The notes under the pieces are model-generated. The model was not told the origin of the DNA, searched no databases, and was given only the letters and a program-made list of their open reading frames with translations. Made by a program: the position numbers and the translations under genes. From Planctomycetales bacterium (GTDB lineage: Bacteria; Planctomycetota; Planctomycetia; Planctomycetales; Planctomycetaceae), in the NCBI GenBank assembly GCA_026400835.1, contig JAPLOA010000055.1:124001-188000 (forward strand): a stretch of DNA of 64,000 nt, given 5' to 3'. The stretch's first letter is position 1. Each line of letters begins with the position of its first letter. Of the stretch, positions 1,078-26,304 are shown in pieces.

Positions 1078-1416
1078 TCAGAAGGGGGAACGGTAGTGAC
1101 TGGATTCCCTTGAACCCATTTCTACCCAGATCGTTACATCAATGTCGTGGCTCACAAACTGCACGTGCCCATCTGCGAACGCGACGTTGACTCCGCCGGG
1201 ATGCAGACTGGTGGCTGTGTAGATTCCCGTCATCACCGAACTGCCGTTGGTGCAGCTTGGGCGATTGGGCGTGAGTGTGTGCGTATACAAAGCTGTTCCC
1301 AGCGAGTGAACACTTTGCGACTCATTCACTCGCTGGCGCGTCGGGCTTGTATTCTCAACGATTCTCGTGAACATGGCGCTGTCCAGATAAGGTACCGATG
1401 TCAAAACGTCATCCAC
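1078..1416 (-). pseudogene. C-terminal fragment of a DUF1559 (prepilin-like) protein
   Basis: The last ~65 residues match the conserved end of planctomycete DUF1559/SBP_bac_10 proteins: a LTPNRPSC segment, then LHPGGVNVAFADGHVQFVS, then a V-W-x-x-MGSR ending. Full family members have an N-terminal prepilin helix and about 300 residues, all missing here; the upstream space is occupied by the opposite-strand gene at 1398. The in-frame residues before the family match (TSPTRQRVNES) are the translation of a family A palindromic repeat, so the repeat sits at the break. Interpreted as a truncated gene rather than a functional protein. Confidence 0.8.
1299..1353. repeat. Family A (RAYT-linked) palindromic repeat, solitary copy
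   Basis: CCAGCGAGTGAA at 1299-1310 pairs with TTCACTCGCTGG at 1325-1336 to form a hairpin, and the conserved flank GCGTCGGGCTTGTATT follows to 1353. The same CACTCGCTGGCGCGTCGGGC core occurs five more times around the transposase at 20.4-20.9 kb. This copy lies inside the broken DUF1559 fragment. Confidence 0.85.
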
Positions 1417-15413: not shown

Positions 15414-17054
15414 GTGGCCAGTAAACCAAGTCCAGCAAAGCCCGTTTCGCCTCAAAGCCCCCCCGTTTCTGTGCCATTGGAGGCTGCCAAAGCCGACAGC
15501 TCGACAATCGCCGTGGGGGCTCCGCTAAACCGGAATTCTCCGTCATCCTCGGCAGTGAATTCAATGGCCGATGTCAGCAGTGGAAAAAAGCTCAACGACA
15601 ACGGAGAAACACGCAGCCGGCGGCGATCGACGTCGCGATCAATCGGCCAAAACGATCGTCTTGTGTCACTGGACGCCTTCCGTGGCTTCATCATGATGAT
15701 GCTGGCGGCCGGAGGATTCGGGATTCTGGCCTTTTCAAAGATCGATAAATCATCTCCGGTCTGGGAAGTCCACAACTGGGACAAATGGCACGCCATCGGA
15801 GATCATTTTGATCATCCCCGGTGGCTGAGCGTGATCGATCGATACAGTGTCTCGTTCTGGGACCTGATTCAACCCTCCTTCATGTTCATGGTCGGTGCGG
15901 CTATGCCCTTCTCCAGCCAGCGCAGAGAATCCAGCGGACAAGGACTGTTCGGGCGGACTCTGCATGCCATCCTGCGTTCGGTCGCGCTGGTTCTGTTGGG
16001 AGTTTTTCTGTCGTCGATGGGGCACGAGAAGACTCTTTGGATCTTCCCAAATGTGTTATGCCAGATCGGCCTTGGGTATTTCTTTGCGTGGATGATGCAT
16101 CACTGGCAACCCATGTATCAGATGATCGCTCTGTTCGTGATCCTGACTGGCTACTGGGGCTGGTTCTCCATGAATCCACCCGCTGCGAATTACGACTATG
16201 CGGCCGTAAGTGCAAGTCAGGAGAATGGTGAAATCTTTGAAGGAAAGTTTGCCGCCTGGTCCAAGAACGCGAATGCGGCTTACAAGTTCGACAGTTGGTT
16301 ATTGCCGCGACTTCGATCGGTCCCGGAACCAGTTCCAGTGGCTGACACAGGAACGCCGAATGACGGTACCGCAAAAGAAGAAGTGGTCGCGGCAGCCAAT
16401 GCAATACCGGTTGCCGACGAGAAACCAGCGCCCGCCGCCGAGGAAGTGAAAGGCACCGAGAAACCCGCTTGGTATCGTCAATGGTTTTTGCTGAATACAG
16501 AAGCTTACAAGCCCAACACCGGCGGCTACACAACCTTGAACTTCATCCCGTCAATTGGCACCACACTGCTGGGGATTTTATGCGGTCAGGTGCTGTTGCG
16601 AATAGATTTGTCGAAATGGTCCAAGCTGGGGATTCTGATCACCGGAGCTGCAATTTGCTTCGGTTTGGGCGTCGCTTCTCATGAGTATGTTTGTCCGATC
16701 GTCAAACGCATCTGGACGCCAAGCTGGGTTTTGTTCAGTGGCGGCTATGTCATCGGCATGCTGGCGTTGTTCTATTTTCTGTTTGATATCCTGCCTCTGA
16801 AACTGCTGGCGTTCCCTTTGGTCGTGGTCGGCATGAACTCCATCCTGATTTACATGATGGGGCAGACAATTTCCGGCTGGATGCGCGAGAGCGTGGTTAA
16901 GGTCCATCTTGCCGGCATGATCGAAAACGTCTTCGGCCCCAAAGCTCTCGATCCCTTATGGTACGGCCCGATTACGTTACCCTCGACAGTGTTTCTGCTC
17001 TACTGGTTGTTCCTGCTTTGGCTGTATCGACAGCGGATCTTTCTGAAACTGTGA
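15414..17054 (+). CDS. DUF5009 / heparan-alpha-glucosaminide acetyltransferase-like membrane protein
   Basis: 546 residues. A GTG start at 15414 is supported by GGAG 7 bp upstream. Residues 1-80 are a Pro/Ser-rich cytoplasmic tail; then LVSLDAFRGFIMMML opens the membrane domain, followed by about eight to ten transmembrane helices. The SLDAFRGF and FWDLIQPSFMFMVGAAM segments are typical of the family related to lysosomal HGSNAT, which moves acetyl groups across the membrane onto glucosamine. A ~100-residue hydrophilic loop rich in Pro/Ala/Glu interrupts the helices around 235-370. Substrate unknown; plausible role in acetylating cell-surface or imported amino sugars. Confidence 0.85.
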   Translation: MASKPSPAKPVSPQSPPVSVPLEAAKADSSTIAVGAPLNRNSPSSSAVNSMADVSSGKKLNDNGETRSRRRSTSRSIGQNDRLVSLDAFRGFIMMMLAAGGFGILAFSKIDKSSPVWEVHNWDKWHAIGDHFDHPRWLSVIDRYSVSFWDLIQPSFMFMVGAAMPFSSQRRESSGQGLFGRTLHAILRSVALVLLGVFLSSMGHEKTLWIFPNVLCQIGLGYFFAWMMHHWQPMYQMIALFVILTGYWGWFSMNPPAANYDYAAVSASQENGEIFEGKFAAWSKNANAAYKFDSWLLPRLRSVPEPVPVADTGTPNDGTAKEEVVAAANAIPVADEKPAPAAEEVKGTEKPAWYRQWFLLNTEAYKPNTGGYTTLNFIPSIGTTLLGILCGQVLLRIDLSKWSKLGILITGAAICFGLGVASHEYVCPIVKRIWTPSWVLFSGGYVIGMLALFYFLFDILPLKLLAFPLVVVGMNSILIYMMGQTISGWMRESVVKVHLAGMIENVFGPKALDPLWYGPITLPSTVFLLYWLFLLWLYRQRIFLKL

Positions 17055-17153
17055 AACAGGCTCTGAACTTTAGATCTGTGATTGCCCTGTCGTGATCTGT
17101 GTCGCCGCTCGCCCTGTAGCTCTTCACGTTCGGCATCGATGATAATCGTTTCG

Positions 17154-19961
17154 CTATTTTGCGGCCGTCCTCGGTGCACCCGAACTGCGATGTCGAACAT
17201 GCAACATCACAGGGAGAGTTGTAATCCCGTCGACGCTGGACTTCAGATAAAACGGTCGGCTCATTTCGGGAACCCACTTCGCGGTTGTGATAAAGAACTC
17301 TCGCTCGTTCTGACCTTCAAGGAGCATAAGCCCGTTTAACCCGATGTTGTCGACGAATACGCCGTGAGGCATATTGCGGCCGGAATCTTCTTTGCCAAAC
17401 TCGACGAGCCCCGTGTGGTCCAGTCGATCCACTTTCAGAAATGCTCGGACGGTTTCTCCCGCCCACACGGTCAACTCCGGAGTATGCTCGTTCTGGCCCG
17501 CAGCCTGTTGCTCAGCGGTCAGAATTCGTACCGATATCTTCGGCTTTTCAGCGATTACCAGATTCTTCAGTCCGCCCACATCGTGGACCACATCCTTGTC
17601 ACCAATTCTTGCGCGAGCTTTAAAGATGACACCCTTCACAGCCTCTTCTGCAGGCTGAACAGCATCGTTGGATGCAATAAGAATTGCCATCGCCTGGCGC
17701 TGTTCCGGCTGAATGATGACAGGGTCTGACAGAGTAAACCCGGCTGGGAGATTCTCCGCAAAGATCTCAATCGGGCCGTCGTAGCCATCAAGCCGCGTTG
17801 CTGTGAAAATGATTTCGCGACCAGTTCCCTTATGAATGCTCAACGTATCTCCTGCCATCGCTATGTTGAAATTCGGCTGTGGATGTCGCAGCATCAACTG
17901 GTACTTGTAGTCGGCTCCCTGAAATCCGCGAGCATCCTTCAGGCGAACGACATAAGTGCCATCAGCCGGAGGCACGAATGTCAGCCGCGAATCTTTGCCC
18001 CACTGACGCATCGGGTCGTCATCGTTCTGGCTGTAAATTGGAAAGATCGGCAGGCCGGTATCTTTCAGAACTACGTCAGCAGGATACGGCACGACAATAA
18101 ACGCCGGCCCCTGCAATGGATGGGAAGTCGGAGTTGTGCCAAAGTAGGTCTGACGCAGTGTTGCCCCGGGATAAACTTTGAAACCAGAATCCGGACCGCG
18201 CGGGTATAGCCAGAGTTTCACGACTTCGCCGTCGGCATAGAGATACTCGTTCAGTTCCATTTCCTGCCAGTTGAAGACTCGAAAGTCATCAGCCGTGTCG
18301 GAATCCTTCCCGCGGAATGTGAAGTAGGAATCCCGCACGGCCTGCAATTGCGTCTGCAAGACAGGCTTGCCATCCGGAGTCACCACTTCCACAGTGGAAT
18401 CCAGCGCCGACTTATCACGGGACGCCTTGACCTCAAGCAGAATCGGCTGCCCCTTTTTTGCCTCAAAGCGAAACTGATCCTCATCGCTGCCGGAAGTTGC
18501 ACCATCGATCACACCTGAGATGTTTGCAGGAAACGGAACAGCCTGCGCAACCGCAACCTCACTGTTTGGCTCCATTTCAGTCACCTCTGCCAGTGGTCCT
18601 GCGGCTTCGGCCATGACGACCACTGCCGCTGCGTCAATTGGTTCCGTTTTGGAAGCGATCTCCGGCAGAGCGACAGATCGATGTTCGTCTTTCGACGTCG
18701 AGATCAGAACGCGAGCGTTTGCACTGTCGATCGCCAGACTCGTGACAAGGTCCTGAGTCAGGTTTTCGGCCGATTGTTCGTTAACCGTTGCGGCATCCCA
18801 GGTTTTGATCGATCCCATGTCGGACGTCGTGACGAGATACCGGCCGTCGTCGGAAATTGCGAGGCGAGTAATCACGCCCTCATGAGCAAATCGAGAGATG
18901 ATCAACGGATTAATCTGTGGCCCATCGACCGACACGAGTTGCCACTTTCGAATTCGGCTGTCGGCTCCAGTTCCCAGAACAAATCGATTATCAGGAGTAA
19001 AGACCACCGAATACTGTTCGGCCTGTGGCTGGCTGAGCGTATCGAAACGTTCTCCAGTAGCCACATTCCAGATTTTGATCGTCGCGTCGGCACTTGCAGA
19101 AGCCAGCAATTTTCCATCCGGACTAAAGCGAAGATCAAACACCGCGCCATTGTGGCCGGTCATTTCACGGATCTTCTCACCCGTTTCCGCATTGTGCAAA
19201 ATGATGCGACGGTCGTATCCGGCCGTTGCGACAATTGTTCCGTCCGGAGACCAGTCGGCCGAGTAAAGAATATCGTTGTGGCCGGCGAACTCTTTTTGAA
19301 TTGAGTCCTGTCCAATAACAACTTCGACCGCTCGACCAGCAAGCCCCGGAGTGCCCGTGGCGAGCAGAACTCTCGTCCCGTCCGGAGAAAGACGCAGTCC
19401 GTTCACCTTGCCGTCTGCGATCGGCAGGCTCCAAACAAGCTCACCGTTCTGAACTTTCCGCTGTTCCACAAGTTTAAATCGACCAGACAGCACTGTGTGG
19501 CCGTCCTTTGATAAGACCATGGCCAAAGCCGGAGATCTGACCTTCGATGCGGTGACTGCGACTTTCGGAAGTGCTGGCAACACCGCCATACGACTGTCAA
19601 ATTTTCCGCCTTCGTGTAGCCATTGGGTCAGAATTGCCAACTCTTCTTTTGAAGGCTGAGCTTCATCAGCGGGCGGCATATGGTCATCGCCAGTGCTGAC
19701 CAAAACCTCCAGCAGTCGACTCTTTGCCGCGGTGGTCTCGTCGAGCACTGGACCATTCTCGCTGCCTTTTTGAATGTCATCAGGAGCCTGCAAAGAGAGC
19801 CCGTTTTGAGCATCCACGCGACTATGACAGCTCACGCAATACTTTTGCAGCAGCGGAGCGATCTGAGTGGAATAGCGAACTGATTCCGCTGCCGTAGCGA
19901 CGAGCGAAAAAGGCAAACAGTAAGTCAGTACAGAGACAGTCAGCAACGCTCGCACGAACAT
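17154..19961 (-). CDS. Secreted cytochrome c (PSCyt1-type) / WD40 repeat fusion protein
   Basis: 935 residues from the ATG at 19961, chosen for its signal peptide (MFVRALLTVSVLTYCLPFSL, cleavage near AAES). Residues ~28-120 are a planctomycete cytochrome c domain with CVSCH at 42-46 and MPPADEAQPSK as the likely heme-ligand loop. Next come about six WD40 repeats (~160-430: HNDILYSADWSPDGTIVATA, HNGAVFDLRFSPDGKLLASA). The C-terminal half has two or more beta-rich domains, the first like a bacterial pre-peptidase domain (SGSDEDQFRFEAKKGQPI). Function unknown; such proteins are often encoded with DUF1501/DUF1553 genes, as occurs a few kb away. A longer open frame reaches 20180 but runs through non-coding repeat DNA. 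Confidence 0.85.
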   Translation of the reverse strand: MFVRALLTVSVLTYCLPFSLVATAAESVRYSTQIAPLLQKYCVSCHSRVDAQNGLSLQAPDDIQKGSENGPVLDETTAAKSRLLEVLVSTGDDHMPPADEAQPSKEELAILTQWLHEGGKFDSRMAVLPALPKVAVTASKVRSPALAMVLSKDGHTVLSGRFKLVEQRKVQNGELVWSLPIADGKVNGLRLSPDGTRVLLATGTPGLAGRAVEVVIGQDSIQKEFAGHNDILYSADWSPDGTIVATAGYDRRIILHNAETGEKIREMTGHNGAVFDLRFSPDGKLLASASADATIKIWNVATGERFDTLSQPQAEQYSVVFTPDNRFVLGTGADSRIRKWQLVSVDGPQINPLIISRFAHEGVITRLAISDDGRYLVTTSDMGSIKTWDAATVNEQSAENLTQDLVTSLAIDSANARVLISTSKDEHRSVALPEIASKTEPIDAAAVVVMAEAAGPLAEVTEMEPNSEVAVAQAVPFPANISGVIDGATSGSDEDQFRFEAKKGQPILLEVKASRDKSALDSTVEVVTPDGKPVLQTQLQAVRDSYFTFRGKDSDTADDFRVFNWQEMELNEYLYADGEVVKLWLYPRGPDSGFKVYPGATLRQTYFGTTPTSHPLQGPAFIVVPYPADVVLKDTGLPIFPIYSQNDDDPMRQWGKDSRLTFVPPADGTYVVRLKDARGFQGADYKYQLMLRHPQPNFNIAMAGDTLSIHKGTGREIIFTATRLDGYDGPIEIFAENLPAGFTLSDPVIIQPEQRQAMAILIASNDAVQPAEEAVKGVIFKARARIGDKDVVHDVGGLKNLVIAEKPKISVRILTAEQQAAGQNEHTPELTVWAGETVRAFLKVDRLDHTGLVEFGKEDSGRNMPHGVFVDNIGLNGLMLLEGQNEREFFITTAKWVPEMSRPFYLKSSVDGITTLPVMLHVRHRSSGAPRTAAK

Positions 19962-20079
19962 CAGCGCACCTGCAATTCGGCCTTGATCGAAATCGGGGTC
20001 CAGCCGGTTGAATTCCAGCGCTCGGATTGTGGTGCGAATCGTCTCAAACTGCAAGCAGGCCACGACATACCGTGTTTCC

Positions 20080-20171
20080 GGGGGGCCTGAAACCTTTTTG
20101 TGTCCTGAAGCCGCCATCCCGCAAGTGCTCATAACACAGGACGATAAGCACGTTAGTGCTTCATGGAGCCT
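20080..20171 (+). pseudogene. Decayed 3' end of a RAYT transposase gene
   Basis: Read on the plus strand, this stretch encodes PEAAIPQVLITQDDKHVSASWS, which lines up without gaps with LEAAILYVLEAQDGDHGAASWS at the C-terminus of the intact transposase 700 bp to the right. DNA similarity is plain at GAAGCCGC.ATC, GTGCT..., ACA.GACG.T and GCTTCATGGAGC. The catalytic Tyr position is Gln here. It is followed directly by the left 158-bp composite repeat, just as the intact gene is followed by the right one. Confidence 0.75.
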
Positions 20172-20174
20172 GTC

Positions 20175-20332
20175 ATACAAGCCCGATGCGCCAGCGAGTG
20201 CGTTTTACTTCCAGGCAGTGCCGACTCTGCGGCCTCGTCCGGCATATACGATCTTGCGTCCATTTACATAAAATGGAGGACATGAGAGCTTCGCGCTGCA
20301 AATACGCACTCGCTGGCGCGTCGGGCTTGTAT
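20175..20332. repeat. Left RAYT-flanking composite palindromic element (family A pair)
   Basis: Two family A repeats in inverted orientation, 20175-20203 (ATACAAGCCCGATGCGCCAG..) and 20304-20332 (..GGCGCGTCGGGCTTGTAT), enclose a 100-bp core with CTTCCA, TGCGTCCATTT and TTCGCGCTGC blocks. Total length is 158 bp, exactly that of the element on the right side of the transposase. It resembles a bacterial interspersed mosaic element (BIME). Confidence 0.9.
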
Positions 20333-20399
20333 TGTGGAACGTTACGATTTAATTGAGACCTGGCCAACCGGTTTAAGTCAGGTGATGTGGAGTTAGCGT

Positions 20400-20903
20400 T
20401 TGAAAAAATTTAATGCTGGCGAGCCGATCGCGTATTTTTTCACGTGGACAACCTACGGCACTTGGCTTCCCGGTGATCATCGTGGTTGGAACCCGAAGGA
20501 CGGAAGTGGGCCGCAAACTGGCAATCAGCTGTTTGAGGAGATGGCTCGTTCTCAAATGAGCGAGCCAGAGTTCCACCTCTGCACTGTCGATCGCGAACTT
20601 GTCGAAAAGGTGATTCGTAAACATTGCGAAATCCGTCAGTGGACTCTGCACGCCGTGAATCCGCGATCGAACCATGTGCATGTTGTGGTCACGGCACCGG
20701 GCTACGAGCCAGAACCGGTCTACGAACAATTCAAAGCCTGGTGTACTCGACATCTGAAAGTGAGTCACAAGGAGCGTGAAAACTTCTGGACAGAGCGAGC
20801 GAGTCGTCGCTGGATTAACCACGAAGAGGATCTTGAAGCCGCGATCCTCTACGTGCTTGAAGCACAAGACGGTGATCACGGCGCTGCTTCATGGAGCTGG
20901 TAA
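20400..20903 (+). CDS. REP-associated tyrosine transposase (RAYT, Y1_Tnp family)
   Basis: 167 residues, TTG start at 20400 with GGAG about 9 bp upstream. The HUH nuclease motif is His92-Val-His94 (NHVHVVV) and the single catalytic tyrosine is probably Tyr151 in AILYVLEAQ; the N-terminal FFTWTTYGTWLPGDHRGW is typical of the group. These enzymes are domesticated IS200/IS605-type transposases that cut and join single-stranded DNA at palindromic REP sequences and are thought to spread them. This gene is intact, and its stop codon is the first base triplet leading into a family A repeat. Inverted family A pairs lie on both sides, which is the hallmark of a RAYT locus. It is distinct from a true insertion sequence because no terminal transposon ends were seen. 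Confidence 0.92.
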   Translation: MKKFNAGEPIAYFFTWTTYGTWLPGDHRGWNPKDGSGPQTGNQLFEEMARSQMSEPEFHLCTVDRELVEKVIRKHCEIRQWTLHAVNPRSNHVHVVVTAPGYEPEPVYEQFKAWCTRHLKVSHKERENFWTERASRRWINHEEDLEAAILYVLEAQDGDHGAASWSW

Positions 20904-21099
20904 TACAAGCCCGACGCGCCAGCGAGTGCGTATCACTGGTAATACAAGTCCGATGCGCCAGCGAGTGCGTTTCACTTCCAAGCCCTGCCACCGCTGCGGG
21001 CTTGCTCGTTAAGCAGTATCCTGCGTCCATTTGTAGCGGCTGGAGTAAATCAGAATTTCGCGTTGCTAATACGCACTCGCTGGCGCGTCGGGCTTGTAT
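20903..21099. repeat. Right RAYT-flanking composite palindromic element (three family A copies)
   Basis: Family A copies lie at 20903-20931 and 20942-20970 (same direction, a 39-bp tandem duplication) and at 21071-21099 (inverted). The segment 20942-21099 is 158 bp with a 100-bp core and aligns without gaps to the left element. The first copy begins at the transposase stop codon. The stretch from 21100 to 21443 that follows holds no gene and no further repeat that I can see. Confidence 0.9.
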
Positions 21100-21443
21100 T
21101 GTGAGACGATCAGGCCCGCTGCTGCACCCCTGGGGAAAACCCGAAACCAGGAGCTTCAGAGAAAGCGACCCTTGAATCGCGCTTTTTCAGAATCAGCCCG
21201 GGATCTTCGTCGCTGGTCGCTACAACTGTTTTAAACGGTTTTCTTACGCGAAGGCTAATGTTTCCTTGAATGAACATGTTGAGCCAACCGGCTTATTTCG
21301 CCCTGTCGTCAATTCTGGGGTAATACTCAAGCACAGAGTCCATTCTGCAAATCATTGTTTCGCAATGATGTTCTGCCCGTCGCGATTCTGATTTGCGGAC
21401 TAAGCCCGTCTCGTTTCTCCCCAGAACACGAAGAAAGTGTTGT

Positions 21444-21848
21444 ATGTCGGATTATGATACTGATGTACTGGTCACGGATCGACGCAGATCATCACAGCGC
21501 CGCACGAAGCCGGAACGCCGACCAGTCAGACCCGTCAAGGAAGTCGCTCCGGAGCCGGAAGAGGAAGTCCGATTCGAAGATCCAGGGATTTCTGCTCGTC
21601 GCGAAATCATGGACCGTCGTCGACAGGATCGCCGTCGACAGATCGACCCCACAACCTGCGAACGCGATTACTCGGATGGTGAAATCGAGTTTATGCGTGC
21701 CATGGATGACTACAAACGCAAGAGCGGCCGACCATTCCCGACATGGAGCGAGGTTCTGGAAGTCGTGATGAGTCTTGGATACCGCAAGGTGGCGGATCCT
21801 TCTCTGCTGGAGTGGAGAACATTCGGCGATCAGATGGGATCACTTTGA
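21444..21848 (+). CDS. Conserved hypothetical protein, Arg-rich N-terminus
   Basis: 134 residues from the ATG at 21444 ([10 protein letters not shown]), with AAGAAAG upstream; a longer frame to 21393 has a less likely start. Residues ~10-75 are very rich in Arg, Glu and Pro ([20 protein letters not shown]), likely disordered and nucleic-acid or ribosome binding. Residues ~82-134 are a compact domain ([20 protein letters not shown], then [16 protein letters not shown]) that I believe is conserved among planctomycetes but has no assigned function. Stands alone between repeats. Confidence 0.8.
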
Positions 21849-21893
21849 GGCACCAGTCTCGAATTGTCTTCCCGATGTTTCCCTGACTGGAAA

Positions 21894-21966
21894 TCCCGAC
21901 CCGAAACGTCAGTGAGTGATTCTGCAGGAGCACTTTGATCCCTCGCAGACGCGTTGGGTCGTGATG
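21894..21966. repeat. Family B palindromic repeat, divergent copy
   Basis: Left arm ACCCGAAACGTCAGTGAGTGAT and right arm ATCCCTCGCAGACGCGTTGGGT are inverted with more mismatches than the other two copies. It lies in the 3' flank of the conserved hypothetical gene. Confidence 0.7.
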
Positions 21967-22161
21967 ACAGGAAACTGTTTCGGGACTGCTCTTTCTGTAA
22001 TTGTGCTCATCCGGCTCGGCAAGTTGCCAAATTCTTCGGACGGACCCTGAGGAATTTTATCAGGCATCGTATTACGACCAAAATCTTATATCCTGCGAAC
22101 CGCATTTCTGGCGTCACATGTGACCCGAACATGCGGTTCGTTGCGTTAATTGCGTCATCGA

Positions 22162-23607
22162 TTACGCCAGAATCCCGTCGACGACATGTCCGTGCACATC
22201 TGTCAGACGGTACTGGCGACCCTGATAGCGGTACGTCAATCGCGTATGATCGACGCCGCAGAGATGCATAATCGTGGCCTGCATGTCATGAACATGGACC
22301 GGATTCGCCACAACGTTCCATGCAAAGTCGTCGGTCTCGCCATACATAGTCCCGGGCTTGATTCCGCCGCCGGCCATCCACCAGCTGTAAGCTCGACCAA
22401 AGTGATCGCGACCTTTGGGGTTGGCCGGATCTCCCTGACCGAATGGCGTTCGTCCGAATTCTCCGCCCCAGACGACGAGCGTGTCATCCAGCATCCCGCG
22501 TTCTTTCAGATCTTTGACCAGGGCGGCGGAAGGACCTTCGGTGTCGATGCATTGCTGTTCAAGCTGAGTATGCAGGTTGCCGTGCTGATCCCAGCCGGCG
22601 TGCATCAATTGCACAAACTTAACGCCTCGCTCCAGCAATCGGCGAGCAATCAGACAGTTGTTCGCAAACGTCCCCTTCGCCAGTGCGTCAGCGCCGTAAC
22701 GATCCAGCGTGGCTTTTGTCTCGCCGGAAAAATCGACAAGATCCGGAACGCTCGACTGCATCCGAAACGCCATTTCGTACTGAGCAATTCGAGTATCAAT
22801 CTCGGGATCGCCATAATCTTCCAGATGGGCCTGGTTCATAGCGACAATGTCGTCAAGCAGGTCACGGCGTGAGCCAGAAGTGACCCCCGGCGGATTTGCG
22901 AGATAAGGCACGAGATCTCCGGTGTTGCGGAAACGTACGCCCTGATAACGGCTTGGGAGAAAGCCGCTGCCCCAATAGTAATCAAAGAACAATTGACCGC
23001 AGGTCTTCGCTTTATCACTGGATGTCATCACGACAAACGTGGGGAGATTGTCGGTTTCGCTGCCCAGCCCATACGACAGCCACGCTCCCATACTCGGACG
23101 GCCGGGAACCTGCGCACCCGTCATGAAGAACGTAACGCCCGGTGCGTGATTGACAGCTTCCGTGTGCATGCTGCGAACAACACAAATATCGTCAGCGATC
23201 GACCCCACGTTCGGCAACATGGAACTCAGCGACATACCGTTTTGGCCATATCGTCGAAACGGCTTGATCGATGGTAAACACGGCCATTTGCCGTATCCAC
23301 TGGACATCGTCGACAGTCGTGTTGTGCCGCGAATTGTGTCCGGAATATCCTTACCGGCCATCTCACGCATCACCGGTTTATCATCGAACAGGTCGACATG
23401 AGACGGACCGCCGCCTTGCCAGAGGACGACTACGCGTTTGGCTTTCGGTGCGAAATGCGGAAAACCCGGCAGAGGAGGCTCGGCTCCACTGGCGGAAGAC
23501 GATTGCATCAGCGACGCCAAAGCAGCAAGCCCCGCGCCGCTGGCCGATGTGCCAAACATCTGACGGCGAGTGACGCGAGCGGCGTTGTCCAGAAACGGGT
23601 TCGTCAT
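22162..23607 (-). CDS. DUF1501 (secreted sulfatase-like) protein
   Basis: 481 residues from the ATG at 23607 (MTNPFLDNAARVTRRQMFG), which has AAGAGA upstream. The N-terminus has a twin-arginine-type export signal (TRRQMF followed by a hydrophobic stretch). Then come the DUF1501 signatures: KRVVVLWQGGGPSHVDLFD, GWDQHGNLHTQLE, VVWGGEFGRTPFG and KGRDHFG, giving a predicted alkaline-phosphatase/sulfatase-like fold. A longer open frame reaches 23736 but its extra N-terminus is a translation of the family D repeat, a common annotation error. It is paired with the upstream DUF1553 gene, the standard planctomycete couple; the exact reaction is not known. Confidence 0.92.
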   Translation of the reverse strand: MTNPFLDNAARVTRRQMFGTSASGAGLAALASLMQSSSASGAEPPLPGFPHFAPKAKRVVVLWQGGGPSHVDLFDDKPVMREMAGKDIPDTIRGTTRLSTMSSGYGKWPCLPSIKPFRRYGQNGMSLSSMLPNVGSIADDICVVRSMHTEAVNHAPGVTFFMTGAQVPGRPSMGAWLSYGLGSETDNLPTFVVMTSSDKAKTCGQLFFDYYWGSGFLPSRYQGVRFRNTGDLVPYLANPPGVTSGSRRDLLDDIVAMNQAHLEDYGDPEIDTRIAQYEMAFRMQSSVPDLVDFSGETKATLDRYGADALAKGTFANNCLIARRLLERGVKFVQLMHAGWDQHGNLHTQLEQQCIDTEGPSAALVKDLKERGMLDDTLVVWGGEFGRTPFGQGDPANPKGRDHFGRAYSWWMAGGGIKPGTMYGETDDFAWNVVANPVHVHDMQATIMHLCGVDHTRLTYRYQGRQYRLTDVHGHVVDGILA

Positions 23608-23657
23608 GATTGATCTCTTGAGGGAGTTCTCTTGCGGTATCAGGGTCAGCTCTTCAT

Positions 23658-23713
23658 GTAGGATGGGCATTCTTGCCCGTCGAAACCCTGTCGGACAAGA
23701 ATGTCCAACGTAC
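23658..23713. repeat. Family D palindromic repeat, copy 1
   Basis: GTAGGATGGGCATTCTTGCC at 23658-23677 and CGGACAAGAATGTCCAACGT at 23692-23711 are inverted copies around a short loop. It sits between the DUF1553 and DUF1501 genes. A second copy is at 45711-45770. Confidence 0.85.
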
Positions 23714-23742
23714 AACTTACATGTCAAAAAACGCACTCGCGT

Positions 23743-26304
23743 TTATTCTCTGGTCAACGCTTCGTCCAAATTCAATATGGCGAGACAAACCGCAGTCATA
23801 GCGGCATGCTCGGCCGAGTTCAGTGATTCATCACGGGCCGCTTCGCCAACGGACAACAAAGCTTTGGCCGCATCCGCATCGGCAGAATAAAGGACAAACT
23901 GCTTTTCATACGCTCGTGTCAGAATCGCACGATCACGCTCCGTGGGCACTCGTCCCAGCACCTGTCGAAAAGCTCTTGTCAGCCGAGATTCGACGTCGGA
24001 CGAAGCCTTGCAACATCGTTCCGCAAGGACTCGAGATGCTTCGACCCACGTCGGATCATTCAGCGTCGTCAAAGCATGCAACGGAGTACTCGTCGGAGTC
24101 TGACGAACTCGACACGCCTGGCGATTTGAAGTGTCGAACATATTCGCCGGCCCGACCGTACGACGCCAGAATGTGTAAAGACTTCGTCGATACAAGTCGT
24201 CACCATGAGACGCCGGATAAGTGAAGTCGCGTTCTTTGGTGATCGCCAGCGATTCCCAGATATCATCCGGCTGATAAGGATAAACCGGAACGCCGCCCAT
24301 TTTGAGATTCAGCAGTTCGCTCGACGCCAGCGCCCAGTCTCGCAGCAGCAGCGATGGCATGCGGAATCGGCTCGCGCGAGCATACAGGCGATTCTCGGGA
24401 TCACGTCGTTTGAGCTCCTGTGTGACTCGGCTGGACTGCCGATACGTGGCGCTGGTTACGATTAAGCGATGGAGATGCTTCATGCTCCAGCCGTGTTCGC
24501 GGAATTCCACGGCCAGCCAATCCAGCAGCGGTCCGTGAATTGGATACTCGCTCTGCACGCCAAAGTCTTCCGCAGTCTTGATCAATCCAGCGCCAAAGAA
24601 GTGCTGCCACATGCGATTCACCTGCACTCGCGCGGTCAGCGGATGCTCAGCGGACACCAGCCACTGGGCAAATCCCAGACGATTGGTCGGAGCACCGGCT
24701 GGCAGAGGCGGCAGGAAGGCCGGCGTGGCAAAGGAGACTTTCTCGGTCGGATTGAGATACTCACCACGCGACAGAATCTTTGTTTCGCGAGGCTGCGCAT
24801 CGCTCATGATCATCGGACGTGGCATCTGATCGGCTCGATAATCGGCCAGTTGCTTTTTCAGGTCATCTCGCTGTTTGATCGCAGGGATTTTGTCGCCCAG
24901 CGTTGGCTGAACCTTCTCTGAGAAGTGTTTTCGCAGGTCTGTCGCCAGAGTCTTCTTTTCGTCGTCGCTGAGTTCTCCATCAGGTTTGATAACCAGCAAA
25001 GTCAGAGCTTCCGGCAATTCCGAGCCTTCCCGCAGTTTGCCTTCCACGATCAACCCGGCACGCCACTCTTCATAAGACGCGTCGACGCCCTTGGTGACTT
25101 CGGCTTCAAGAGCAGCGATCTGCGTATCAAACTCGGCAATGCGAGCTTTCGTTTCAGGAAATGGATATTCCAGAAACGGTGCGGCGACGCGAACTCGCGA
25201 TGAAAAATACTGCGGCGTTCCGGACTCGGGAACTCGGTTGAATGCGTCCAGCATGCTGTAGTAGTCACGCTGCGTCATCGGATCATACTTGTGATCATGA
25301 CACTGCGCGCAATTCATGGTCAGACCGAGCCATGTCGTAGACGTGGTCTCCATGCGATCGAACAAAATCACCCAGCGTTGTTCTTCCGCAATCGCGCCGC
25401 CTTCACCATTCAGCAGATGATTGCGATTGAAGCCGCTGGCGATTTTCTGCTCGTCCGTTGCGTCAGGCAGCAAATCTCCAGCCAGTTGCCAGATCGTAAA
25501 CTGATCAAACGGCAGGTTTTCATTGAACGACTTCACGACCCAGTCACGCCAGATCCACTGCCACGTGTCACCATCCTGCTGGAATCCATTGCTGTCCGCG
25601 TAACGAGCCGCATCCAGCCAGCTGAGAGCCATTCGTTCGCCGTAATGAGGACTGGCCATCAAACGATCGACAAGCTTCTCATAGGCGTCAGGACTTTGAT
25701 CGGCGACAAACGAGTCAACTTCTTCAGGCTCAGGAGGAATGCCGGTCAAATCAATCGAAAGCCGACGGATCAATGTCGCTCGATCAGCTTCCGGTGATGG
25801 TTGCAGCCCCATGCTTTCCAACTTCGCCAGCACAAAGCGATCGATCGCGTTTCGCGACCAATCTTGCCGAGCCACCTCGGGATCGGCTGGTCTTACCGGA
25901 GCAACAAATGCCCAGTGCTTCTGGTAAACGGCGCCTTCAGAAATCCACCGCTGCAGCAGAGCTTTTTGTTCAGGGGATAAGTGCCGGTTGGACTTCGGGG
26001 GTGGCATCTGCTCATCGGGATTCTCGGAATGAACACGCTGGATCAGTGCACTGGCCGACGCATCCCCGGGGACAATCGCGCCGGCGGTGATTGCTGCGTC
26101 GCGATCGTCCAGCCGCAGATCGGCCAGACGCTTGTTCGAATCCTGGCCGTGACAGTAAAAACAGTTCTCGGACAGAATCGGACGAATGTCGCGATTGAAG
26201 TCCAGCGGCAGCGGGGCAGACCCGCCCTCCTGAGCCATCACAGAGAACGGCATGCCGCTTACGAGTGCAGTCAGAAAAAGCAAAAGCCCTTGATGCGGTT
26301 TCAT
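23743..26304 (-). CDS. Planctomycete cytochrome c DUF1549/DUF1553 (PSD1) protein
   Basis: 853 residues with a signal peptide (MKPHQGLLLFLTALVSGMPF). Domains in order: cytochrome-like PSCyt1 (~35-135, heme motif CFYCH at 48-52, MPPPKSNRHLS loop), DUF1549 (~155-360, including WLDAARYADSNGFQQD and a second CAQCH-type heme site in LTMNCAQCHDHKYDP), then DUF1553 (~540-800, RLGFAQWLVSAEHPLTARV and VNRMWQHFFG). These large periplasmic proteins are a planctomycete hallmark and are nearly always encoded with DUF1501; they are proposed to act in degrading complex sulfated polysaccharides, but this is not proven. 135 bp upstream of the DUF1501 start, same strand. Confidence 0.95.
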   Translation of the reverse strand: MKPHQGLLLFLTALVSGMPFSVMAQEGGSAPLPLDFNRDIRPILSENCFYCHGQDSNKRLADLRLDDRDAAITAGAIVPGDASASALIQRVHSENPDEQMPPPKSNRHLSPEQKALLQRWISEGAVYQKHWAFVAPVRPADPEVARQDWSRNAIDRFVLAKLESMGLQPSPEADRATLIRRLSIDLTGIPPEPEEVDSFVADQSPDAYEKLVDRLMASPHYGERMALSWLDAARYADSNGFQQDGDTWQWIWRDWVVKSFNENLPFDQFTIWQLAGDLLPDATDEQKIASGFNRNHLLNGEGGAIAEEQRWVILFDRMETTSTTWLGLTMNCAQCHDHKYDPMTQRDYYSMLDAFNRVPESGTPQYFSSRVRVAAPFLEYPFPETKARIAEFDTQIAALEAEVTKGVDASYEEWRAGLIVEGKLREGSELPEALTLLVIKPDGELSDDEKKTLATDLRKHFSEKVQPTLGDKIPAIKQRDDLKKQLADYRADQMPRPMIMSDAQPRETKILSRGEYLNPTEKVSFATPAFLPPLPAGAPTNRLGFAQWLVSAEHPLTARVQVNRMWQHFFGAGLIKTAEDFGVQSEYPIHGPLLDWLAVEFREHGWSMKHLHRLIVTSATYRQSSRVTQELKRRDPENRLYARASRFRMPSLLLRDWALASSELLNLKMGGVPVYPYQPDDIWESLAITKERDFTYPASHGDDLYRRSLYTFWRRTVGPANMFDTSNRQACRVRQTPTSTPLHALTTLNDPTWVEASRVLAERCCKASSDVESRLTRAFRQVLGRVPTERDRAILTRAYEKQFVLYSADADAAKALLSVGEAARDESLNSAEHAAMTAVCLAILNLDEALTRE

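Follow-up and report, generated by a model that had tools for sequence, protein, structure and literature searches.

The locus around positions 20,080-21,099 of our window (the whole stretch of 64,000 nucleotides that was analysed, from a Planctomycetales bacterium) raises two questions: what kind of system is formed by an intact tyrosine transposase lying between two repeat elements of equal length, and why the DNA on its two sides is so alike. The first-pass annotation of this sequence had proposed a REP-RAYT system, an identification supported here by an HUH/Y1 protein with the marks of a published RAYT class and by neighbouring repeats (A repeats) that carry a CCGA foot. It had also regarded the locus as a distinct type on the ground that its host is a planctomycete, and the centre of each element as a long, conserved core that might be cargo or a structured RNA; neither of these two proposals survived the comparisons reported below.

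We began with the transposase gene, whose product carries NHVH at residues 91-94, W130-T131, Y151 and Q156 (numbered in the window ORF). N91, H92, H94, W130, Y151 and Q156 are invariant across an alignment of 27 relatives. A Pfam search assigned the protein to Y1_Tnp (27.2 bits, cut-off 23), and with the NCBIfam model transpos_IS200 it scored 27.3 bits, under the cut-off of 55. A profile made from the RAYT alignment (A1) retrieved IS200-type structures (2f4f, E 0.0027), and a predicted structure of modest confidence (mean pLDDT 66.7) had 2f4f, 2xm3 and 4er8 as its top three structure matches. Comparison of codons 20-166 between the window genome (G000) and its sister genome G138 revealed 12 synonymous and 3 nonsynonymous changes (dN/dS ~0.07); the gene therefore appears to be maintained as functional and, judged by these codon changes, is under purifying selection. 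The gene is present as a single copy in its genome, and the nearest other Y1 genes are 35-36% identical to it. Promoter and terminator scans returned nothing exceeding chance.

Class 3 TnpAY1 proteins with atypical REPs were published in 2018 (BMC Genomics 19:475, PMC6006769), with 11 of the 24 sequences coming from Planctomycetes, so a planctomycete RAYT is not by that token a distinct type. According to the class-3 sections of that paper, the hosts are mainly Planctomycetes, Acidobacteria and Proteobacteria, the marks of the class are NHVH, W[TA] and Y----Q, and the gene lies between weak hairpins whose foot reads CnGA. These hairpins were spotted by eye, and the authors asked for experiments; class 3 was seen there as a possible intermediate between IS and REPtron. 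The window locus agrees with this description (PMC6006769) in its three protein motifs, its flanking hairpins with a CnGA foot (here CCGA), its conserved N-terminal region and hairpins that can recur in the genome. It departs in part from the consensus YV[VI][AENY]EQ in the class-3 table of PMC6006769, since the window reads YVLEAQ, in which positions 1, 2, 4 and the last fit and positions 3 and 5 do not. We conclude that the gene is best read, by its sequence, as a RAYT of the published class 3 and the locus as a class-3 REPtron, a member of an already published group.

Other known systems resemble the locus in part. Gammaproteobacterial RAYT/REPIN systems, as outlined in the relevant parts of PMC8266576 and PMC3116915, share a single RAYT gene, flanking REPINs and the HUH/Y1 fold, and 4er8, among the best structure matches of the window protein, is a RAYT bound to a REP hairpin. 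Unlike canonical (class 2) RAYTs, the window has the foot CCGA rather than GT[AG]G, no Y-I-x-x-N-P motif, and only 24 bits in NCBIfam REP_Tyr_transpos, which has a cut-off of 80. The TIRYT/TIRtrons, tyrosine transposases with flanking inverted repeats for which R. baltica was named as rich in the portion of PMC3733652 that concerns them, can be likened to the locus by description, as planctomycete genes with flanking inverted repeats and with dimers possible in the genome. The window protein has the same catalytic fold, by profile and model, as IS200/IS605 transposases (2f4f, ISDra2 2xm3, IS608), from which it differs in its sub-threshold score with the IS200 family model and its single copy. 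A literature search found no paper joining 'repetitive extragenic palindromic' with Rhodopirellula.

We then examined the flanks, where the annotated plan of an HUH/Y1 transposase between two same-plan elements was confirmed. The 158-bp inverted-repeat elements on the two sides (20175-20332 and 20942-21099) are identical at 124 of 158 positions without gaps, and the gap-free direct repeat spans 20172-20341 and 20939-21108 (133/170 identical). In each element two A repeats of ~32 nt, inverted with respect to each other, enclose ~94 nt, so that both flanks of the RAYT consist of two REPs in inverted orientation (Table 1). The two arms are 94% complementary on the left (20175-20206 and 20301-20332) and 93% on the right (20941-20970 and 21071-21100), and between the left and right elements they are identical at 30/32 and 32/32 positions. 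The annotated 39-bp tandem duplication, which adds a third A copy at the stop codon, was likewise recovered, its first copy beginning within the TAA; the RAYT copy of G138 is without this duplication, which it either never had or lost. Allowing at most three mismatches, the core of the A repeat occurs six times in the window against 0.07 expected, with none of 100 shuffles reaching six, and five of these copies lie at the RAYT locus and one at 1325. Chance is thus excluded as the source of the A repeats, which, with their CCGA foot, are best read as the REPs of this RAYT, each 158-bp element then being a putative inverted REP pair (REPIN).

Table 1. Coordinates of the features at the RAYT locus and of a dispersed repeat copy in the window.
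Feature	Position	Strand	Remarks
Dispersed A-type REPIN, one arm decayed	1299..1389	.	97% over 91 nt to a G138 REPIN; best A-repeat match beyond the RAYT locus
Stretch absent from the close relative G101	20062..21115	.	G101 has 158 bp of unrelated sequence; flanks 94-95% identical
Relic of a second RAYT copy's 3' end	20103..20174	+	51/72 vs 20831-20902, ungapped, in frame
A repeat (REP), left element, outer arm	20175..20206	+	strand is the orientation with the CCGA foot first
Left spacer ('core')	20207..20300	.	62/94 identical to 20974-21067; folding not significant
A repeat (REP), left element, inner arm	20301..20332	-	
RAYT, class-3 TnpAY1-like HUH/Y1 transposase	20400..20903	+	167 aa, TTG start, TAA stop 20901-20903
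First 39-nt tandem copy with extra A repeat on the stop codon	20902..20940	+	33/39 vs 20941-20979
A repeat (REP), right element, inner arm	20941..20973	+	
Right spacer ('core')	20974..21067	.	91/94 columns identical to G138, matching intergenic flank (columns shifted one base)
A repeat (REP), right element, outer arm	21068..21100	-	32/32 identical to the left inner arm

The resemblance between the two flanks does not stop at the elements. Directly ahead of the left element lies a relic of the gene's 3' end, absent from the first-pass description of the locus, which reads Gln where the RAYT has its catalytic Tyr. It is the best plus-strand match in the window to the gene's 3' 72-mer besides the gene itself, with the next best match at 36 and a binomial p of ~1e-14. 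The offset from relic to element is constant after allowing for the 39-nt indel, and the direct repeat thus extends left into the 3' end of the gene. Since the relic precedes the left element, both elements seem to have arisen by tandem duplication long ago, and since it is in register, the left element would once have trailed another RAYT copy in the arrangement [RAYT 3' end + element][RAYT + element]. In this account, tandem duplication of an ancestral [RAYT 3' end + REPIN] would make the two elements alike in plan and length, and the left gene copy would then have decayed to the 72-nt relic. The matching flanks are therefore best explained by old duplication and not by new cargo or RNA, an order of events that we infer from sequence comparison. 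Among the compared RAYT loci we found no other upstream C-terminal RAYT relic; this survey is a weak negative because its threshold missed the window's own relic too.

Other duplications and repeats were noticed at RAYT loci. At L063 (genome G097) the N-terminal 5' end of the RAYT is duplicated ~410 nt upstream of the gene, a further hint of duplication at such loci, and at L134 (G136) the two flanks of the RAYT form an almost perfect inverted repeat of great length (450 nt aligned with a score of 409). An upstream match at L128 consisted of REP-coded residues.

A structured RNA, or cargo, kept for a function of its own would account for the equal length and gap-free alignment of the cores on both sides, and the whole element folds strongly (z -9.8). 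This fold is, however, due to the pairing of the two arms: the core alone gave z-scores of -1.36 to +0.74, and even at the best of these 18 of 200 shuffles folded equally well. Between left and right the core is identical at 62 of 94 positions and has diverged as much as the dead relic (51 of 72; Fisher p 0.61), in clear distinction from the arms (p 9e-7). Between the window and G138 it drifts as the flank does, with 91/94 identical positions in the core, 330/344 in intergenic DNA, 428/444 in the RAYT and 395/405 in the next gene. An Rfam search gave a single hit of 16.7 bits, far from its threshold of 70, and the spacers at related RAYT loci vary in length between 6 and 188 nt. The core shows no sign of constraint in these sequence comparisons, diverging like intergenic DNA and the dead relic; the structured-RNA or cargo core was rejected on these grounds, and we regard it as hardly credible.

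To place the locus in its genomic setting, we compared its surroundings across the genus. The neighbours within 15414-26304 are ordinary for a planctomycete (a PSCyt1/WD40 protein, DUF1501 and PSCyt1/PSCyt2/PSD1), and the 134-aa protein at 21444-21848 had no Pfam match. This neighbour gene at 21444 is present in 17 of 18 genus genomes, and in the stretch around it (~1.5 kb per side where contigs allow) a RAYT or REP was found just in G000 and G138, that is, in 2 of the 17. In the close relative G101, the one genome for which synteny was checked on both sides, the sequence that takes the place of the unit is not a clean empty site, and in G138 the left flank is unassembled, the contig ending inside the gene. 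The sequences left and right of the RAYT have diverged by 29-34%, well over the 5-6% divergence between G000 and G101. In the simplest order suggested by these sequences, the old duplication took place elsewhere and was followed by the arrival of the whole unit at its present locus; multiple losses across the genus, instead of an arrival, may also account for the distribution.

Such an arrival would suit an autonomous IS200/IS605-like insertion sequence, corresponding to 20062-21115 or 20175-21100, which would use the 158-bp elements as its ends and move as a unit. The absence of the unit from G101 between closely similar flanks, its presence at the locus in so few genus genomes, and sides that differ by more than the species do, as though the unit came already duplicated, are all in keeping with such an element, and PMC6006769, in its treatment of class 3, names the class as a possible IS-REPtron intermediate. 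We nevertheless consider this explanation improbable: the gene has one genomic copy, with only distantly similar Y1 genes after it; its score falls well short of the NCBIfam IS200 cut-off; each side is an inverted REP pair rather than one hairpin per end; and the insertion junction is not clean, G101 holding unrelated sequence there. Even less likely, in our judgement, is that the 158-bp elements are a separate small, MITE-like mobile element that integrated twice, in independent events to the left and right of the RAYT. The supposed mobility of REPINs and the presence of a whole inverted REP pair on either flank would suit that account. On the left, however, the repeat stays in register through a further 72 nt of RAYT coding sequence, a stretch that two separate insertions would not have duplicated, and the element has no other copy in the genome.

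We therefore hold that the locus is very probably a class-3 REPtron, made up of a RAYT with its own REPs and REPINs, whose flanks match through an old tandem duplication of [RAYT 3' end + REPIN]. By analogy with published TnpAREP work, the single-copy RAYT would recognise its own REP hairpins in single-stranded DNA, cut near them with Y151 and be able to rejoin the ends, so that REPs and REPINs could spread in trans through its action; the two 158-bp elements would be REPINs with a longer-than-usual, passive spacer. REP binding, cleavage and REPIN movement by this RAYT are inferred from that analogy.

We next surveyed 150 genomes of the family, 70 of which match the RAYT profile at E <= 1e-20 and 55 of which carry a class-3-like RAYT, defined by a cut at ~150 bits. 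The RAYT profile also picks up a second group of Y1 matches of 80-122 bits in many family genomes. The 101 RAYT loci that were fetched collapsed to 74 distinct RAYTs, and a REP motif was found beside 38 of them (on both sides in 33, on one side in 5, on neither in 36), compared with both sides in 3, one side in 7 and neither in 64 for a reversed-motif control at the same loci. Where the full pairs are present, the orientation is usually +,- upstream and +,- downstream, and the first downstream REP often lies at the stop codon. A motif-free test, from which 3 of the 74 loci were left out for too little flank, gave a similar picture: at 66 of 71 loci the upstream/downstream inverted repeats scored higher than in any of 20 random resamplings, and direct repeats were present at 55 of 71, some of them 80-240 nt long. 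The spacers of 50 inverted REP pairs ranged from 6 to 188 nt with a median of 53, so that the window's spacer of 110 is long and not unusual. When REP subtype was mapped on the RAYT tree, 13 changes were required compared with 34.1 in shuffled data (0 of 200 as low), and a supported clade of 10 RAYTs holds 9 of the A/T REP subtype. As far as these sequences and this tree can tell, REP subtype follows RAYT clade.

The REP itself was analysed as a hairpin in a set of 133 extended REPs, all distinct. The column pair 4:20 is C-G in 97, A-T in 15, G-C in 4 and unpaired in 17, and the pair 5:19 is C-G in 104, G-C in 11, T-A in 4, T-G in 4 and unpaired in 10. Columns 6:18 (G.A) and 7:17 (A.G) show these combinations in 118 REPs each; in the loop, column 11 is G and column 14 is A in 130 REPs. 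We subsequently tested the stem in 33 representative rows, taken from 35 loci after removal of L137, whose majority copy was in another register, and of one row from the identical pair L052/L054, and observed 9 cells changed on both sides versus 1.6 in shuffles (0 of 500); slid structures lose this signal. In the same test 2 pairs carry a double change, a count no higher than shuffles give, since 142 of 500 attain it. Given this covariation, the CnGA 'foot' seems to be part of the REP stem. The feet at related RAYT loci are CCGA, CTGA, CGGA and also ACGA and TCGA, and in the A repeat of the window the covarying pair 4:20 is mismatched (C.T). For single REPs, folding energy was no better than for shuffles. 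A loop-to-flank pairing of columns 2:12 (A-T 53, G-C 27, other 5) was also considered and rejected; this pattern probably reflects shared descent, because none of three independent pairs on the RAYT tree supports the pairing.

Having defined the motif, we counted its copies with and without a RAYT. The first-pass annotation had expected further copies of the element in the genome. The 158-bp element has two copies there, both at the RAYT locus and nowhere else; the part of the expectation that stood concerns the A-type REP pattern, which is commonest, at 7 copies each, in the two RAYT-bearing genomes of the genus, G000 and G138. A-type REPs are nonetheless rare in the window genome (6 exact by an 18-nt core, 7 by the longer pattern), and mobilisation by the window RAYT is thus not conspicuous. 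The all-subtype REP pattern gives 143 matches in this genome; subtracting the A type leaves ~130 REPs of another subtype (AACCCGACGCGTCAGCGAGGGAT), spread over many contigs and in some cases arranged as inverted pairs, an assignment that draws on typing in no more than 31 distinct contexts, of which 26 were other-subtype. No member of the class-3 RAYT clade that goes with this abundant subtype was found in the window genome.

The first-pass annotation had also suggested testing whether genomes lacking the RAYT lack the element. Within the genus the counts point that way, since nine other genomes drawn hold 0-3 A-type copies. This does not extend to the wider REP family, for which at least 30 copies were found in 20 of 95 genomes without a detected class-3-like RAYT, compared with 24 of 55 with one (p 0.005); for at least one REP copy the figures are 47 of 95 and 36 of 55 (p 0.06). 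The genomes counted as RAYT-less include G012 and G139, in which many REPs accompany what are probably RAYT fragments (129 and 106 bits), and genomes with only 80-122-bit Y1 matches. Zero REPs of the searched pattern were present in 19 of the 55 RAYT-bearing genomes. The sequence-based link between REP number and RAYT presence across the family is thus present but loose, and REPs are common in genomes without a detected RAYT, so REP populations appear to persist, or exist, without a detected one.

Set beside the class-3 description in PMC6006769, as far as its sections on the class extend, the window adds a duplication relic, a REP hairpin with covariation between its foot and the 3' strand of the stem, and a scarcity of cognate REPs next to many of another subtype, that is, a resident RAYT that does not match the abundant REPs. 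Across a planctomycete family, class-3 REPs can now be seen as a hairpin with covarying stem positions, and their subtype tracks the RAYT clade. The window genome could serve as a test case, with one RAYT and ~7 matching REPs beside ~130 REPs of other subtypes, to which no class-3 RAYT found here corresponds; together with its sister genomes it lets one ask whether a RAYT acts on cognate REPs alone and for how long REPs persist once their enzyme is gone. A bolder reading, which we put forward tentatively and consider rather doubtful, is that the family's class-3 REPtrons still move as composite REPIN-RAYT-REPIN units (here with an old internal duplication) and constitute a living link from insertion sequences to domesticated RAYTs. 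On this reading their REP would be a defined DNA hairpin with a GNNA loop, whose stem takes in the CnGA foot and has covariation at 4:20 and 5:19, a tandem G.A step that is conserved, and a bulge of one base.

Two remoter Y1 transposase genes of the window genome, at C62:2506-2988 and C27:146276-146758 (L011 and L012), are the 35-36% identical relatives mentioned above. No REP of the RAYT-flank motif was found within ~1.5 kb of either, and the two genes may have some role for the REPs of this genome.

The A-type REPINs away from the RAYT locus differ from the 158-bp elements. In G138, A-type REPINs with ~22-nt spacers occur at two loci, and a third has a decayed arm (contig C118); the dispersed copies have short spacers, so the dispersed units would be short REPINs and not the 158-bp element. 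When a dispersed G138 REPIN was checked for an empty site, its flanks landed near two contig ends of G000. At L169, L170 and L174 of G138 and at the dispersed copy in the window (Table 1), A-type REPINs can lie in a longer element, which has outer inverted repeats CTGGACAGCGCCA...TGGCGCTGTCCAG that form a second palindrome layer around the REP pair.
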